Made by a program: the position numbers and the translations under genes. From assembly GCF_009937995.1 (NCBI RefSeq), contig NZ_AP021881.1, positions 3,224,001 through 3,288,000 on the forward strand: a DNA stretch of 64,000 nt, given 5' to 3'. The notes beneath the pieces were generated by a model. That model was given only the letters and a program-made list of their open reading frames with translations. It did not search any database and had not been told where the DNA came from. The DNA is from Sulfuriferula nivalis. GTDB taxonomy: Bacteria > Pseudomonadota > Gammaproteobacteria > Burkholderiales > Sulfuriferulaceae. Position 1 is the first letter of the stretch; every line of letters starts with the position of its first letter. Shown here in pieces: positions 3,003-8,721 of this stretch.

Positions 3003-4634
3003 TTGAAAGAGCTTAGTTTATTTCTCACTACCATCGGCATTGTTGCAATGCTGCGTGCCTTGTTGTACGCGCGGGTATTGCTGAATGATGAGCGCACTCG
3101 TAATTTGGCGGGCTGGCGCCTGTTGTTCGGGTTGCTGTGGTTATTTATCCTGGGATTTGCTGGATATAGTCTGACCTTGTTTACGCGTTCAGCATCGATG
3201 ATTGATGCAGTGGTTTCCAGCATATTTTGCGGTGGTGGGCTGTTTACACTGGTTTCGTTGAATGTCAGTGTTAAAACTTTGCAATATGTGGGTGAAATCA
3301 CCCGCCGCGAACGTCATGGCTGGTTGCATGATAGCCTGACCAATTTACCCAATCGGCGTTTGCTAATGGAACGGATAGAGCATGCGATTGATAGTGCAAA
3401 TCTGACCAAACGACCTGTTGCCATCATGATGATGGATTTAAACCGTTTTAAAGATGTGAACGATACACTCGGACATCATTATGGTGATGAACTGTTAATT
3501 GCGCTTGCCCAGCGTTTGCGGCATATGACCAGTCTGTCGCGCATGGTTGCGCGTATGGGTGGGGACGAATTTGGTTTTGTGCTGGAAGGCTTTAGCAAAA
3601 AAGATGCTATGACCTTAGGTCGAGAGATACTTGCACTGGTTGATAAACCGTTTGTCATTGATGGGCATAAACTTAGCATAGGCGGAAGTATAGGCGTGAC
3701 CATGTATCCCGAGCATGGCGATATTGCCCAACAGCTATTGCAAAATGCCGATGTGGCTATGTATGCAGCCAAACGCAATGGCGGTGGCGTGACCATGTAT
3801 GCGGCGGGCATCAATGAAGCCAGTTTGAGCAATCTGAACTTGATTGCCATGCTTAAGCACCCCGATCTGCGAGATCAGCTCACGATTTGTTATCAACCCA
3901 AAGTCAATCTGCGCGATGGTACAGCGTGCGGGCTGGAGGCGTTGGTGCGCTGGAATCATCCTACGCTGGGTAATATTCCGCCGGACCAGTTTATCCCGAT
4001 TGCTGAGCGTGCAGGGGTCATGAAAGAGATTACTTTTGCTGTGTTACACAGCGTGTTAGCGCAGCTTGAAGAGTGGCATGCATTGGGGTTGCAGGTGAAA
4101 GTCGCGGTCAATCTGTCGATGCGCAATTTGAGCGACGAAGGCTTGCCTGATGACATTGCCAAGGCGCTTGCATCCTACAATATTCCGCCAGATTGCCTTA
4201 TCCTGGAAGTGACGGAGAGCAGCATGATGGTTAATCCAGAACTTGCCAATGCCACGCTTACCACCTTGAGCAAGCTCGGGGTGCAATGTTCAATTGACGA
4301 TTTTGGTACGGGGTTTTCCTCGCTGGCCTATCTTAAAAGCCTGCCTGCATCTGAAATTAAGATAGATAAATCGTTTGTCACTGATATGACGAATGATGAG
4401 AGTGATGCCATCATTGTTCACGCCACTATCGTGATGGCGCACAACATGGGATACCGCGTGGTAGCAGAGGGTGTGGAAAATGCGGAAATTCTGGAGTTGT
4501 TGCAAATTCTGGGCTGTGACATTGCCCAAGGATTTTATTTCAGTAAACCTATCGCCGCTGAGCATGTTGCGGAGTGGATAGTGTTGCATAACAAAAGTAG
4601 CCAGAATTTCGTGAGCCGGCGCTTAACTCCCTGA
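3003..4634 (+). CDS. Membrane-anchored GGDEF-EAL protein (cyclic-di-GMP turnover)
   Basis: A 543-residue protein with two or three hydrophobic segments in residues 5-90, followed by a GGDEF domain (intact GGDEF at 186-190) and an EAL domain (EAL at 312-314, later DDFGTGFSS). Both catalytic signatures are canonical, so it may make and degrade cyclic-di-GMP. There is no RxxD product-inhibition site just before GGDEF. The frame begins with TTG; the first internal ATG is at codon 16 and would cut into the first membrane segment, so TTG is kept with some doubt. The 222-bp space shared with divergent pbpG holds a small palindrome (GACAC/GTGTC, 2912-2925). Its 3' end overlaps rsuA by 12 bp on the opposite strand. 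Confidence 0.9.
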   Translation: MKELSLFLTTIGIVAMLRALLYARVLLNDERTRNLAGWRLLFGLLWLFILGFAGYSLTLFTRSASMIDAVVSSIFCGGGLFTLVSLNVSVKTLQYVGEITRRERHGWLHDSLTNLPNRRLLMERIEHAIDSANLTKRPVAIMMMDLNRFKDVNDTLGHHYGDELLIALAQRLRHMTSLSRMVARMGGDEFGFVLEGFSKKDAMTLGREILALVDKPFVIDGHKLSIGGSIGVTMYPEHGDIAQQLLQNADVAMYAAKRNGGGVTMYAAGINEASLSNLNLIAMLKHPDLRDQLTICYQPKVNLRDGTACGLEALVRWNHPTLGNIPPDQFIPIAERAGVMKEITFAVLHSVLAQLEEWHALGLQVKVAVNLSMRNLSDEGLPDDIAKALASYNIPPDCLILEVTESSMMVNPELANATLTTLSKLGVQCSIDDFGTGFSSLAYLKSLPASEIKIDKSFVTDMTNDESDAIIVHATIVMAHNMGYRVVAEGVENAEILELLQILGCDIAQGFYFSKPIAAEHVAEWIVLHNKSSQNFVSRRLTP

Positions 4635-5398: not shown

Positions 5399-6139
5399 TC
5401 AGACTTTGATATAGGACCAGCCATCGTGCAGGCGGTGTACAATTTCTTCAGTGGCATTAGGCGTGATTTGTGTATTTGGGAGTAAATTCACCTTAACACC
5501 GGTTTTGCTTAAACGTTGTATGCTCTGATTGCAAGCAACGAATTTTACATTGGGGTGTTGTGCTTCCAGCTCGCTGATGCGTTGCGCATAGGGTGTTACG
5601 TCAGTACGCAACATACCCAGACCGGAATGGCTGGCAACAACCTCCACCTGTATTGGTTGTCCCAGTGCGGCCTGATGTTGGGTCAATGCATCTATATCAT
5701 CTAACAGGGCTTTGAATTTGGCAGGATCGGCCGAATCAATATGCATGAGCAGCTTATGTGTATCTTCAGTGACGCCTGCCAAACTGACCAACTGAAAATT
5801 GTTTGGTTGCGTTTTTGACTGATTTTGCGCAAATTGCAGATTGTTATCTGCTTGATGGAAATCGTGCATCATCCAGCCCAGACTCAATCCTAGCGCAAGC
5901 ATTACCCCTGCGGCTAACGATTTTGGTATGGTGAATTTTCGCACCCACTCACTATGCGTGGCTTCTGGCGGTTCGGCATAACCATGGCGTACCAGCTCTT
6001 TAACTGCGCGCAGATCGCAGACTTGATTGGCCAGTTCGGCATCAGCTTGTATCCGCGTAAACAGTTGGTCTTTTTCAGCGACATCCAACTCGTTATCAAT
6101 AAACGCGTTTAATTGTGCATTTGATATTTCGGTGTTCAT
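5399..6139 (-). CDS. Membrane anti-sigma-factor-like protein with periplasmic DsrE-like domain
   Basis: A 246-residue protein in three parts. Residues 1-55 resemble an anti-sigma N-terminus (NAQLNAFIDNELD) but lack a clear zinc-binding HxxxCxxC. One membrane helix spans about 74-92. Residues 115-246 form a DsrE/F-like domain that should be periplasmic. The last part aligns by eye with the exported protein at 6874-7326: both have V-x-F-x-x-C-N (Cys203 here) and end in G-aromatic-x-Y-x-K. The ATG overlaps the sigma stop (ATGA), the usual arrangement for a sigma/anti-sigma pair. I infer that the outer domain senses a signal, possibly a sulfur or redox species, and controls the sigma factor. The anti-sigma role rests on context and layout. 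Confidence 0.75.
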   Translation of the reverse strand: MNTEISNAQLNAFIDNELDVAEKDQLFTRIQADAELANQVCDLRAVKELVRHGYAEPPEATHSEWVRKFTIPKSLAAGVMLALGLSLGWMMHDFHQADNNLQFAQNQSKTQPNNFQLVSLAGVTEDTHKLLMHIDSADPAKFKALLDDIDALTQHQAALGQPIQVEVVASHSGLGMLRTDVTPYAQRISELEAQHPNVKFVACNQSIQRLSKTGVKVNLLPNTQITPNATEEIVHRLHDGWSYIKV

Positions 6140-6684
6140 TTCACTATCCTTAATGCGATGCCCTTACTTACGGGTGCCAAATCAATCAGGCTGTTCTGCA
6201 GTGTTTGCCTGCCCCTGCATAGCCGGCTCATGACAGTGCCAACGGGAATAGACAGGATGTCAGCAACCTGGTTGTAGCTAAATTCTTCCAGATCAACCAG
6301 TGTTAATACTTGGCGTTGGCCTATGGGTAACAAAGCCACAGCTGCCCGTACCTTGTCCACTACCTGATTGCGCGAATTAATGTGCTCTGGCGTTTCATCA
6401 TGCGCATAGAGGTAATCTTCCATGTCCTCTACGTCCTGAAAATCCTTTTGGCAGCGCAAACAGTCACGCCAGCAGTTATGCAAAATCTTGAATAACCAGC
6501 TATCCAGTTGTGCCACATCACGCAGCTGGTGCATACGTGCCAGTCCACGCGCTAACGCTTCCTGCACCAAATCATCTGCCATTGCGCGGTCATGCGACCA
6601 GGCATAGGCGACCCGATACAAACGATCGCGTCTTTCCTTGATCTGCGTGCCTATGCCCAATCCCAACAAATGCAATAAATTCAT
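6136..6684 (-). CDS. ECF-family RNA polymerase sigma factor
   Basis: A 182-residue sigma-70-family protein with region 2 (DDLVQEALARGLARM and SWLFKILHNCWRD) and region 4 (LPIGQRQVLTLVDLEEFSYNQVADIL, then VGTVMSRLCRGR helix-turn-helix). Regions 1 and 3 are absent, as in ECF sigma factors, which direct polymerase to special promoters under envelope or other stress. It overlaps the anti-sigma-like gene by 4 bp. An ECF-type promoter (GGAATA-N16-CGTCTT) sits 36 bp before its start, and the same promoter drives the opposite operon, so positive autoregulation is likely. The ECF subgroup cannot be assigned without a database. Confidence 0.92.
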   Translation of the reverse strand: MNLLHLLGLGIGTQIKERRDRLYRVAYAWSHDRAMADDLVQEALARGLARMHQLRDVAQLDSWLFKILHNCWRDCLRCQKDFQDVEDMEDYLYAHDETPEHINSRNQVVDKVRAAVALLPIGQRQVLTLVDLEEFSYNQVADILSIPVGTVMSRLCRGRQTLQNSLIDLAPVSKGIALRIVK

Positions 6685-6719
6685 TATTTAGCTGTCCTGA
6701 TTTTTTCATCCACCTTAGT

Positions 6720-6747
6720 AAGACGTTCGACCTGTGTAATTTATTCC
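6720..6747 (-). promoter_or_regulatory. ECF-type promoter of the sigma/anti-sigma operon
   Basis: On the minus strand GGAATA (6742-6747) is followed by exactly 16 bp and CGTCTT (6720-6725). This fits the general ECF pattern of a GGAA-type -35 and a CGTC-type -10. The expected start of transcription is near 6712, about 28 nt before the sigma ATG. Both hexamers and the spacing are identical to those of the divergent promoter. Confidence 0.7.
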
Positions 6748-6772
6748 ATGAAATATATATATTTTTTATGAC

Positions 6773-6800
6773 GGAATAATCATCGAGCGCCATGCGTCTT
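6773..6800 (+). promoter_or_regulatory. ECF-type promoter of the DsrE/porin operon
   Basis: On the plus strand GGAATA (6773-6778), a 16-bp spacer and CGTCTT (6795-6800) mirror the sigma-operon promoter exactly. The two GGAATAA boxes form an inverted repeat around an AT-rich core (6748-6772). Transcription would begin near 6807, leaving a leader of about 67 nt before the ATG at 6874. Confidence 0.7.
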
Positions 6801-6873
6801 TACTGTACGGATAACAATTACACCGTACTCGCATTTAACCTTTATTGATTTACCATGACTTAAGGAACAACAT

Positions 6874-7326
6874 ATGAACCAACGCGTCGTTAGATTATTG
6901 TCTGCCAGCCTTGCTGTTTTTAGTTTTATATTCACGCCATTGCTTCATGCCGCGGAAAATACCAAGAGTACTAACCCAATCAAAGTGGTGTATCACATAG
7001 ACGATACCACGCGTGCCAGCGCCTTACTTAAAAACGTGCAAAATAATTTAGAAGCTGTACCCGGCACTAAGATTACAGTCGTTGCGCATGGCAAAGGCAT
7101 CGATTTTATGTTGAATAATGCGCAAGATGCCAACGGCAATCCTTATAACGTCATGATGGAAACGCTGGCTCAACAAGGGGTGGAATTCAAAATTTGCAAC
7201 AATACCCTCAAAAGTCGTCATTTAACCGCTGCCGATGTCGCCTATCCTGTGACTATCGTCCCCGCAGGTATTGCTGAAATTGCCAGATTGCAGGCGCAAG
7301 AGGGCTATGTGTATGTGAAACCTTAA
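6874..7326 (+). CDS. Exported DsrE-like protein
   Basis: 150 residues with a signal peptide (cleavage near LLHAA, residue 27) and a single DsrE/F-like domain. Cys108 lies in VEFKICNN, where DsrE-type proteins often carry the sulfur-handling cysteine. Cytoplasmic relatives (DsrE, TusD) carry persulfide sulfur; the role of exported versions is not established. The domain is a paralogue of the C-terminal half of the anti-sigma-like protein at 5399-6139. A good ribosome site (AAGGAA) precedes the ATG. The porin gene starts 51 bp downstream, probably on the same transcript, under the ECF-type promoter at 6773. Confidence 0.85.
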   Translation: MNQRVVRLLSASLAVFSFIFTPLLHAAENTKSTNPIKVVYHIDDTTRASALLKNVQNNLEAVPGTKITVVAHGKGIDFMLNNAQDANGNPYNVMMETLAQQGVEFKICNNTLKSRHLTAADVAYPVTIVPAGIAEIARLQAQEGYVYVKP

Positions 7327-7377
7327 AGCTGTTGCTAACAATTTGACCATACATACCATAACCATATTAAGGGAATC

Positions 7378-8721
7378 ATGATGAAAAAAAACGTATTATT
7401 GCTCACACTTATTTCTGGCTTAGGCGTTGCTAATGCCAGCTACGCTGCAGACTGGATGTCGGTACAAGGTCTGGAGCCTGCCAATGCAGAAGCTTACAAA
7501 TTATGGGGGTTTATACAGCCTACTTATACCTATATTGAGGCCAAGCCTATTGCAGGTTTAGGCGGCACTATTGCTGGCTATAATGGACAACAACAAATTC
7601 CTAACTTAGTTGGTCCTGATCTGGAGCACACACAAAATATCCAGTTATTTCGTGCGCGACTAGGTGTGCGTGGTGTGTTGAAGGCCGTGGATGATCGTAT
7701 CAATTACTTCGTTTTGCTGGAAGCGGGACGTAACGGGATTACCCGTGACCAGAATGTGGTGCTGAGTGATGCGTCCATGACTTTCAGTTACATTCCTGGC
7801 ATGCATTTGCGTGCAGGTCTGTTCAAATTGCCTACGGGTGAAGAAGCGCTATCTCCGGTTCACGTTGATTATAATTACGTCAACTTCACCAACGTCACCG
7901 ATGGCATGTTGAATGAGCGCGATATGACACCGATTACTGGCACTGTACCTGCAGGGCTCGCTGGCGGTACTGTTCAAGGCAGCCTGAGTGGTTTCCGCGA
8001 TATTGGTATTGAGGCATTTAATACTTTCCGTCATAACAAATGGGAATTTGGTTATGCTGCGATGGTGTCTAATGGCAACAACATCAATTTCATCACTGAC
8101 AATAATCACGCCAAAGACTTTACTGGCAGATTACAGGTTTCCTATGTTTTCGGTGGCGCGGGCGCTGCTCGTGAAGATGTTAATGCTTTTATCTGGCATC
8201 AGGAAGGTAAGCGTACATTTGGTTCGACGGATTACAACCGCATGCGCGAAGGTCTGGGTTTCAAATATATGAAAGACAAAATACGTGTTTCCGGGGAAGC
8301 CATGCATGGTTCAGGCATGATCTATAATGGACCTAACCCACCGTTTAATGATATTCCTGGCGCGAATACACCGGCTCCGATAGACACTGTGGCGCTGCAG
8401 GATTACAACACCGCGGAAGGCTGGTATCTGGAAGGGGGTTATAAGTTCTTGCCACAGTGGAGAGCTAACCTTAAGTATGACGTATACAATCGTTTAACCA
8501 ACTCACAGCAAGCTGCTAACGAACGTGATTTCAAGACATGGACGATAGGTGGCGAGTATTTGATGAGTAAAAATACTCACTTTACCCTGACGTACGAAAT
8601 CCGTAAGAATAGTGTTGCTCATCCTGAAGCGATTGCTAATGCAACTAACCGTAACAACGCATTGCTGATTGCTGATGACTTGGGTAATCGGATTAGCTTG
8701 CAAATGACACACATTTTCTAA
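7378..8721 (+). CDS. Outer-membrane porin, OprO/OprP-like beta-barrel
   Basis: 447 residues with a signal peptide ending at SYAA (about residue 23) and a long run of alternating hydrophobic strands that finishes in phenylalanine (MTHIF), the C-terminal signature recognised by the BAM complex. Stretches such as FRARLGVRG, YFVLLEAGRNG and LRAGLFKLPTGEE recall the phosphate-selective porin family, but the solute cannot be read from sequence. A GGGAA ribosome site precedes two adjacent ATGs. It follows the exported DsrE-like gene and is followed by a strong hairpin, so the two form a short operon that the ECF sigma probably controls. Confidence 0.8.
   Translation: MMKKNVLLLTLISGLGVANASYAADWMSVQGLEPANAEAYKLWGFIQPTYTYIEAKPIAGLGGTIAGYNGQQQIPNLVGPDLEHTQNIQLFRARLGVRGVLKAVDDRINYFVLLEAGRNGITRDQNVVLSDASMTFSYIPGMHLRAGLFKLPTGEEALSPVHVDYNYVNFTNVTDGMLNERDMTPITGTVPAGLAGGTVQGSLSGFRDIGIEAFNTFRHNKWEFGYAAMVSNGNNINFITDNNHAKDFTGRLQVSYVFGGAGAAREDVNAFIWHQEGKRTFGSTDYNRMREGLGFKYMKDKIRVSGEAMHGSGMIYNGPNPPFNDIPGANTPAPIDTVALQDYNTAEGWYLEGGYKFLPQWRANLKYDVYNRLTNSQQAANERDFKTWTIGGEYLMSKNTHFTLTYEIRKNSVAHPEAIANATNRNNALLIADDLGNRISLQMTHIF

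Follow-up and report, generated by a model that had tools for sequence, protein, structure and literature searches.

A probable transmembrane sulfur-response switch with an ECF26-like sigma factor and an anti-sigma factor fused to a DsrE domain

Within a 64,000-nt stretch of the Sulfuriferula nivalis genome (contig NZ_AP021881.1, positions 3,224,001 to 3,288,000 of the forward strand; hereafter the window), two divergent gene pairs probably form a transmembrane, ECF26-like sulfur-response switch with a DsrE-type periplasmic sensor. The pair on the minus strand encodes an extracytoplasmic function (ECF) sigma factor and a membrane anti-sigma factor fused to a DsrE domain, whose open reading frames (ORFs) overlap by 4 nt, and the pair on the plus strand encodes an exported DsrE protein and a porin (Table 1). 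An earlier note made from the sequence alone had described an ECF sigma gene overlapping a membrane anti-sigma gene, with an exported DsrE protein and a porin opposite, and all four genes are in place. We establish here by computation the architecture of the locus, the fold of the sensor domain, the promoter motif, the conservation of the system and its linkage to sox genes; the sox linkage and the ECF26-type promoter are the strongest additions to the earlier account.

The DsrE domains of the anti-sigma factor and the exported protein

The window anti-sigma factor was modeled with AlphaFold2 from an 81-sequence alignment (mean predicted local distance difference test (pLDDT) score 86.8, predicted template modeling (pTM) score 0.57). 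The alignment comprises the window protein, three loci of the family (L034, L036, L039) and 77 of the 80 relative loci described below, with L098, L124 and L131 left out; matched regions rather than ORFs were aligned, ORF starts being ambiguous in several loci. The model has an N-terminal helical domain and one long helix (residues 73-98), followed by an alpha/beta domain that runs from about residue 129 to the end and is confidently predicted, with a pLDDT of 93-98 per 10-residue block from about residue 131. The relative placement of the domains is uncertain because of the pTM of 0.57. In Foldseek, the C-terminal domain matched MTH1491 (1l1s) with a template modeling (TM) score of 0.90 on the target and the DsrE subunit of DsrEFH (2hy5_A) with 0.60, and a profile search found MTH1491 (1l1s) at E 1e-19. 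Against the Pfam DsrE model the window copy scores 17.8 bits, below the curated cut-off of 22.7, and the model is matched at E<=0.01 by the sensor domain in 18 of 81 relatives; the window copy would therefore not be called DsrE by the Pfam model alone, and it is assigned to the family by its fold together with the conserved cysteine. As modeled, the C-terminal domain of the anti-sigma factor has the DsrE fold.

The N-terminal domain, a candidate class I anti-sigma domain (ASDI), gave weak profile matches to MucA (6in7, E 0.32) and RseA (8z6g, E 0.39), and unrelated chains scored alike or better (for example 1p4x, 0.009). Pfam matches of the N-terminus at E<=0.01 were to zf-HC2 in 19 and to RseA_N in 2 of the 81 members. 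A zinc-type anti-sigma factor was considered and rejected, the Hx3Cx2C signature being absent by eye from the window protein. The most hydrophobic 19-residue stretch between the two domains exceeds a hydropathy of 1.6 in 56/81 members, no segment above 1.6 lies inside either domain in any of the 81, and K/R residues are richer on the N-terminal side of the helix in 71/81. It weighs against a transmembrane switch that the helix is weakly hydrophobic (1.21-1.59) in 25/81 members, including the window copy (1.54). By this predicted topology, the DsrE domain of the anti-sigma factor faces the periplasm. A second cysteine of the window protein, Cys41 in the cytoplasmic anti-sigma domain, is conserved in at least 90% of the alignment (81 sequences).

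The exported protein belongs to the DsrE family by Pfam (PF02635, E 2e-12; 47.6 bits against the cut-off of 22.7), and the profile of its alignment matches MTH1491 at E 2e-29, the same MTH1491 type as the sensor. The proposal of the earlier note that a DsrE-like domain occurs both in the sensor and in its output thus held, by fold and profile for the former and by Pfam for the latter. A charged n-region followed by a hydrophobic h-region is present in 58 of the 62 separate DsrE proteins from relatives. One column of the alignment is Cys in all 150 DsrE sequences, namely 81 sensors, 63 separate DsrE proteins (the window's and 62 from relative loci with scores above 60), four paralogues from the same genome and two PDB chains. 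In the corresponding tree the sensor domains group in a single clade that excludes the exported DsrE proteins (81/81, local support 0.913), which speaks against a recent duplication of the exported DsrE into the sensor, and we rejected that origin. The window's genome has six DsrE-like places, the window's and five others (L002-L006). One DsrE-like place of this genome (L050) comes after a histidine-kinase-like/response-regulator-like pair, and on a Methylosinus trichosporium plasmid (L249, 4005-7652) two DsrE-family genes and a DUF302 gene stand after soxZ-soxB, a sox-DsrE link in which the stretch read carries no annotated sigma or anti-sigma gene.

Relatives were collected by scanning one genome per species (84,980 species) with the family alignment. 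The scan pattern was back-translated from one stretch of the anti-sigma N-terminus, and all locus counts concern relatives selected for that stretch. The scan found 106 relatives, of which 80 were kept; a single-sequence scan of the same genome contigs found none. The relatives belong for the most part to the Beta- and Gammaproteobacteria, including Thiobacillus, Sulfurisoma, Parasulfuritortus, Gallionella, Thiogranum, Thiohalobacter and Sedimenticola; one is a metagenome-assembled genome of the Desulfobacterales. The sigma gene is adjacent to the fusion in all 80 relative loci; at the family level, the fusion was matched in 16 of 18 genomes and is adjoined by the sigma gene in 15 further loci read. 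A separate DsrE gene lies within 4 kb in 54/79 loci (3 by weak matches of 34-51 bits) and a related porin is found in 27/79, L124, cut by a contig end, being dropped from all counts over 79 loci. The earlier note had suggested a search of other genomes for co-occurrence of the sigma factor, the fusion and the exported DsrE, and had named missing linkage and a C-terminal domain without likeness to DsrE as grounds for giving up its proposal; linkage was observed, and the domain is DsrE-like. In one locus (L088, 4645-9457) two sigma/anti-sigma-DsrE pairs enclose a DsrE gene and a porin gene, and three class genomes (G311, G362, G435) carry three fusion matches each. A gene beside 11/91 loci, which by eye we take to be glnE-like, was set aside as a sign of the shared ancestry of one group and not of function.

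The two DsrE domains allow a reading in which the exported protein is the sulfur receptor, an RseB-like co-regulator that would bind the sensor as a mixed DsrE oligomer and, in its loaded or unloaded form, release the sigma factor. We regard this as possible, though not likely. The frequent separate DsrE gene nearby, which stands under the same promoter motif in 40/80 loci, and the cysteine invariant in both proteins are consistent with it, and DsrE proteins do form mixed complexes, such as DsrEFH (2hy5) and the DsrE3A-TusA heterocomplex (PMC4175335; here and below, a paper is cited for those of its parts that were covered). However, in 25/79 loci a separate DsrE gene is missing from the surrounding 4 kb, although one could lie elsewhere, and with six DsrE-like places in the window's genome a dedicated partner is not obvious. 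The common fold and cysteine, and the common motif before the sensor operon and the exported DsrE, would also suit the feedback suggested in the earlier note, here a negative loop with the exported protein removing or competing for the signal; we think this rather improbable, since the data do not separate feedback from plain output and the sensor and exported proteins fall into separate clades.

The promoter motif and the ECF26-like sigma factor

The earlier note had proposed that the same ECF-type promoter drives both sides, and the shared motif was borne out. The exact form GGAATA-N16-CGTCTT occurs at two sites in the whole 3.44-Mb genome, both at this locus; tolerating a single mismatch brings the total to 17 sites, compared with 4 in the reversed control. 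Three of the 15 one-mismatch sites were inspected and set aside as chance: two (L162, L163) lie antisense to a reading frame, inside it or across its beginning, and one (L176) is within an ABC-permease-like gene. The majority consensus of the predicted circuit promoter is TGGAATAAA-N14-CGTCTTA. In the relative loci, searched with GGAAT(A/G)-N15/16-CGTC, the motif precedes the sigma gene in 74/80, a DsrE gene in 40/80, sox or yeeE genes in 7/80 (soxX 3, soxB 2, soxY 1, yeeE 1), a dsbC-like gene in 2/80 and a porin gene in 1/80. Random 300-bp segments away from the circuit genes contain it in 16 of 9733 cases, and its conservation before the sigma gene therefore excludes a chance origin of the promoter pair.

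The strict form GGAATAA-N15/16-CGTCTT was searched for in the genomes of 20 relatives chosen from the 80 loci, and gave 13 matches with none in the reversed control. Six of these precede a sigma gene, two a DsrE gene, one soxYZ and one a porin gene at 324 bp, and three have no recognisable gene after them. The surroundings of nine were read for this assignment; the two matches in G213, and the sigma sites in G222 and G223, were assigned from positions in known loci. The clearest case is Sulfurisoma sediminicola (G223), with four strict matches: one before the sigma gene, one before a DsrE gene on another contig, one before a soxYZ operon and one unexplained. This soxYZ operon, confirmed by Pfam, lies 122 kb from the sigma gene on the same contig. 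Two results weigh against the proposed switch: 12/20 of these genomes are without any strict match, and a looser motif gave 196 matches against 65 in the reversed control over 998 kb, so that single loose matches can be chance. In L242 (1346-5303) the motif stands 324 bp before the porin gene, on a contig other than that of the sigma pair, and genes that by eye are groES-like and groEL-like follow downstream on the same strand.

The sigma factor is an ECF factor (group 4 of the sigma-70 family): its 182 residues contain region 2 (Pfam r2, E 3e-10) and region 4 (r4_2, E 2e-14) without others. In NCBIfam the sigma70-ECF superfamily model scores above its cut-off, and the equivalog models among the best 25 of 89 score below theirs. 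The protein is 38% identical over 141 aa (95.9 bits) to the probable Sinorhizobium meliloti RpoE6, an unannotated ORF (L247) assigned from its pSymA location and the S8 protease beside it, and 40% identical over 154 aa to a Rhizobium ECF factor encoded divergently from an S8 protease, as rpoE6 is; plasmid matches of similar strength also occur in Caballeronia, Massilia and Ensifer. The ECF26 consensus is GGAATA/GT, and the published rpoE1 and rpoE4 promoters are alike in form to those of the window (PMC6180224); held against this paper, the -35 GGAATA and -10 GT are present in the window promoters and in 74/80 relatives. In ECF26 anti-sigma factors a transmembrane part lies between the N-terminal domain and a periplasmic domain somewhat similar to RsiW (PMC6180224), and the anti-sigma factor downstream of the window sigma gene has, by predicted topology, the same layout with a periplasmic C-terminal domain. 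An ECF26-like sigma factor is indicated by the promoter of the window genes and by the resemblance of the sigma factor to the probable RpoE6 and the Rhizobium relative. The anti-sigma factor of the probable RpoE6 has no DsrE domain by Pfam and aligns to the window anti-sigma factor at the N-terminus only, weakly (18.5 bits, E 0.12). Taken together, the promoter form, the similarity to the probable RpoE6 and the lack of DsrE in the anti-sigma factor of the latter suggest an ECF26-like sigma factor with a different sensor.

Work on ECF26 bears on the signal. An earlier tentative assignment connected the group with thiosulfate oxidation (cited in PMC3511301). RpoE1 and RpoE4 of S. meliloti are activated on thiosulfate and taurine, sulfite being proposed as the signal, and sulfite added directly did not induce them (PMC3511301). 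Added sulfite induces the genes of sulfite-oxidising enzymes in S. meliloti and Starkeya, and Starkeya likely has a tetrathionate-responsive circuit (PMC6527743). The signal might accordingly be sulfite, with the DsrE domain sensing sulfite or a sulfite/thiol balance and the circuit serving detoxification or flux balancing. This is a lesser possibility. In its favour, the promoter consensus is common to ECF26 (PMC6180224), S. meliloti RpoE1 and RpoE4 respond to sulfite-generating compounds (PMC3511301), and published work on the signal of ECF26 factors points to sulfite rather than sulfane sulfur, which counts against sulfane sulfur as the signal here. On the other hand, direct addition of sulfite failed to induce RpoE1 and RpoE4, and the input need not be shared, as the probable RpoE6 anti-sigma factor lacks DsrE by Pfam. 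The predicted outputs here are a DsrE protein, a porin and in some relatives sox, among which sulfite dehydrogenase genes were not searched for.

Linkage to sox genes

The sulfur theme, marked in the earlier note as inference, is now backed by sox genes in the neighborhood, by co-occurrence across genomes and by sox-side promoters in some relatives. At least one sox match was found in 25/79 loci and at least two sox genes in 22/79. With the 81 aligned proteins clustered at 60% identity, 16/43 clusters have a sox match and 31/43 a separate DsrE, the four rows for the window and the family loci being unscored here. The sox profiles were built from clusters in the same loci; representatives of SoxZ, SoxY, SoxA and YeeE were confirmed by Pfam, whereas the SoxB and SoxX labels rest on metallophosphatase and cytochrome c matches together with position, and the lone SoxX match in L074 may be spurious. 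In a survey of the order, the fusion is present in 24 of 200 genomes at E 1e-30 or better, and soxZ in 24/24 of these against 108/176 others (Fisher 4e-5, shared ancestry ignored); soxZ lies within about 3 kb of the fusion in at least 9 of the 24, and five further genomes matched weakly, via the DsrE part. In the class, the fusion is present in 72/369 genomes (E 1e-25) and soxZ in 70/72 of these against 127/297 others (Fisher 8e-20, shared ancestry ignored). In L189 and L190 a soxYZ copy lies on either side of the sigma/anti-sigma pair, with all these genes on the same strand.

Several results speak against a general link of the switch to sox. In 54/79 loci there is no sox match and 57/79 have fewer than two sox genes, several loci ending at contig ends, and the motif precedes a sox gene in just 6/80 loci. 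Six of the 72 class genomes match only part of the fusion (the remaining 66 have soxZ in 65), 3 of the 70 soxZ matches in the class are weak (E 1e-4 to 6e-6), and the co-occurrence counts are uncorrected for shared ancestry. In the window's own genome, the soxXYZAB operon is located elsewhere and has no circuit motif in the 17 kb read, so that in this organism there is no indication of sox control and its predicted regulon comprises just the divergent pair. Sox apparently comes under the switch in some relatives.

A general envelope or thiol-stress switch, responding to metals or oxidants and only incidentally present in sulfur oxidisers, has a precedent in the membrane anti-sigma factor NrsF of Caulobacter, whose cysteines matter for the metal response (PMC3511200). 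The frequency of soxZ in genomes with the fusion and the sox-side motifs in 6/80 loci both argue against it, and we consider it very improbable.

The features of the locus are collected in Table 1. A search of 6600-7500 for sigma-70-type promoters and intrinsic terminators found none. The locus is flanked by what we take, by eye, to be an rsuA-like pseudouridine synthase gene and a dgt-like gene, and a protein of GGDEF-EAL type (by eye) is encoded at 3003-4634, upstream of the sigma/DsrE module.

Table 1. Positions of the predicted features of the locus in the window
Feature	Position	Strand	Basis
Membrane anti-sigma factor fused to C-terminal DsrE domain, 246 aa	5399..6139	-	ORF; adjoining sigma gene in 80/80 relative loci; AlphaFold2 model
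N-terminal anti-sigma domain, about residues 1-54	5978..6139	-	AlphaFold2 helices 7-14, 20-32, 34-53; weak MucA/RseA profile matches
Single transmembrane helix, residues 73-98	5846..5923	-	AlphaFold2 helix and hydropathy
Predicted periplasmic DsrE (MTH1491-type) sensor domain, residues 125-246	5402..5767	-	Foldseek, hmmsearch
Cys203 codon, invariant DsrE cysteine of sensor	5531..5533	-	Cys in 81/81 sensor domains
ECF sigma factor, 182 aa, ECF26-like	6136..6684	-	Pfam; identity to probable S. meliloti RpoE6 and Rhizobium ECF factor
Predicted ECF promoter of sigma/anti-sigma operon, GGAATAA-N15-CGTCTTA	6719..6747 (GGAATAA 6747-6741, CGTCTTA 6725-6719)	-	Sequence; genome-wide search; relatives
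Predicted ECF promoter of DsrE-porin operon, GGAATAA-N15-CGTCTTT	6773..6801 (GGAATAA 6773-6779, CGTCTTT 6795-6801)	+	Sequence; genome-wide search; relatives
Exported DsrE protein, 150 aa; signal-peptide-like residues 1-26 (by eye)	6874..7326	+	Pfam DsrE
Cys108 codon, invariant DsrE cysteine of exported protein	7195..7197	+	Cys in 63/63 separate DsrE proteins aligned
Outer-membrane porin, Porin_O_P type, 447 aa	7378..8721	+	Pfam PF07396, E 3e-7

The proposed switch and its comparison with known systems

We propose the following mechanism, in which we infer the binding of the sigma factor, the identity of the signal, the chemistry of the cysteine, the release step and the roles of the porin and the exported DsrE protein; the identity of the signal is the weakest part of the account. 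In the resting state, the anti-sigma factor would keep the ECF26-like sigma factor at the inner membrane through its N-terminal domain. On arrival of reduced sulfur in the periplasm, Cys203 would react with or bind a species derived from thiosulfate, be it polythionate, sulfane sulfur or sulfite. Such an adduct is suggested by the invariance of the cysteine and by DsrE3A, which with tetrathionate forms a Cys-S-thiosulfonate (PMC4175335). The anti-sigma factor would then let the sigma factor go, via proteolysis or a change of shape; proteolysis is the most frequent release route for membrane-bound anti-sigma factors (PMC8103513) and may apply here. The freed sigma factor would transcribe from promoters of the form TGGAATAAA-N14-CGTCTTA, and in S. 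nivalis would switch on its own operon (autoregulation) together with the genes of the exported DsrE and the porin, two proteins that presumably import and carry periplasmic sulfur. In several relatives, the predicted output includes soxX, soxY, soxB or yeeE.

A more elaborate form, which we hold to be speculative and on balance unlikely, has a split DsrE relay as the receptor: the exported DsrE would dock on the membrane DsrE in a mixed oligomer like that of DsrEFH, and the shared cysteine pair, once loaded, would open the anti-sigma factor. If so, the cell would gauge its periplasmic sulfur load via the carrier itself and set the levels of sox, porin and carrier, and, within the open literature searched, this would be the first DsrE domain to act as a signal receptor, and an outside-facing sulfur sensor for sox genes.

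The proposed transmembrane switch offers a concrete candidate for a sensor of external sulfur, found in roughly one in five of the class genomes sampled (72/369), in a field where the sensing of external sulfur by regulators of sulfur oxidisers was called poorly understood in 2024 (PMC11582611). The sharp promoter makes prediction of the regulon possible, the candidate sensing site is a single invariant cysteine, and exported DsrE proteins gain a likely context. A natural experiment is also at hand, as sox is apparently under the switch in some lineages and the DsrE-porin operon alone in the window's genome. The earlier note had held a periplasmic DsrE coupled to a sigma factor to be not well described. 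This stands for the DsrE sensor, no description of a DsrE anti-sigma factor having been found in the open literature searched (the 2021 ECF classification, outside that search, may hold such a group), and does not stand for the sigma factor, whose ECF26 type with its thiosulfate and sulfite responses is known.

Among known systems, RseA and MucA have a single transmembrane layout. The anti-sigma factor described here resembles them in this layout and in the weak N-terminal profile matches, and differs in that its periplasmic part is a DsrE domain. DsrEFH and DsrE3A are sulfur carriers that act inside the cell. With these DsrE/MTH1491-type carriers the two DsrE domains share the fold and, in comparison with MTH1491 and ST0148, the conserved cysteine; DsrEFH is cytoplasmic by the title of PMC3397948, whereas here one DsrE is predicted to be the periplasmic part of an anti-sigma factor and the other to be exported. 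SoxR/SoxT of Hyphomicrobium has a like task, the reporting of external thiosulfate, but consists of a transcriptional repressor and a YeeE-like membrane protein, and the term sigma factor is absent from the text of that paper as covered (PMC11582611). In Arcobacter butzleri, sox is likewise under ECF control, sigma2 (AB1044) activating and sigma7 (AB2301) repressing it; in contrast to the present case, their regulons comprise 65 and 72 genes and overlap, no autoregulation was seen, and the parts of the text covered mention no DsrE (PMC3445524). The likeness to the ECF26 pairs (RpoE1, RpoE4 and RpoE6 of S. meliloti and SigE/RpoE1 of Starkeya) lies in the promoter consensus, the autoregulated sigma factor, the downstream anti-sigma factor and the thiosulfate/sulfite theme. 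A known ECF26 output is a sulfite dehydrogenase (sorT), and the one ECF26 anti-sigma factor compared, that of the probable RpoE6, is without DsrE; in the system described here, the predicted output is an exported DsrE, a porin and in some relatives sox, and the predicted sensor is a DsrE domain.

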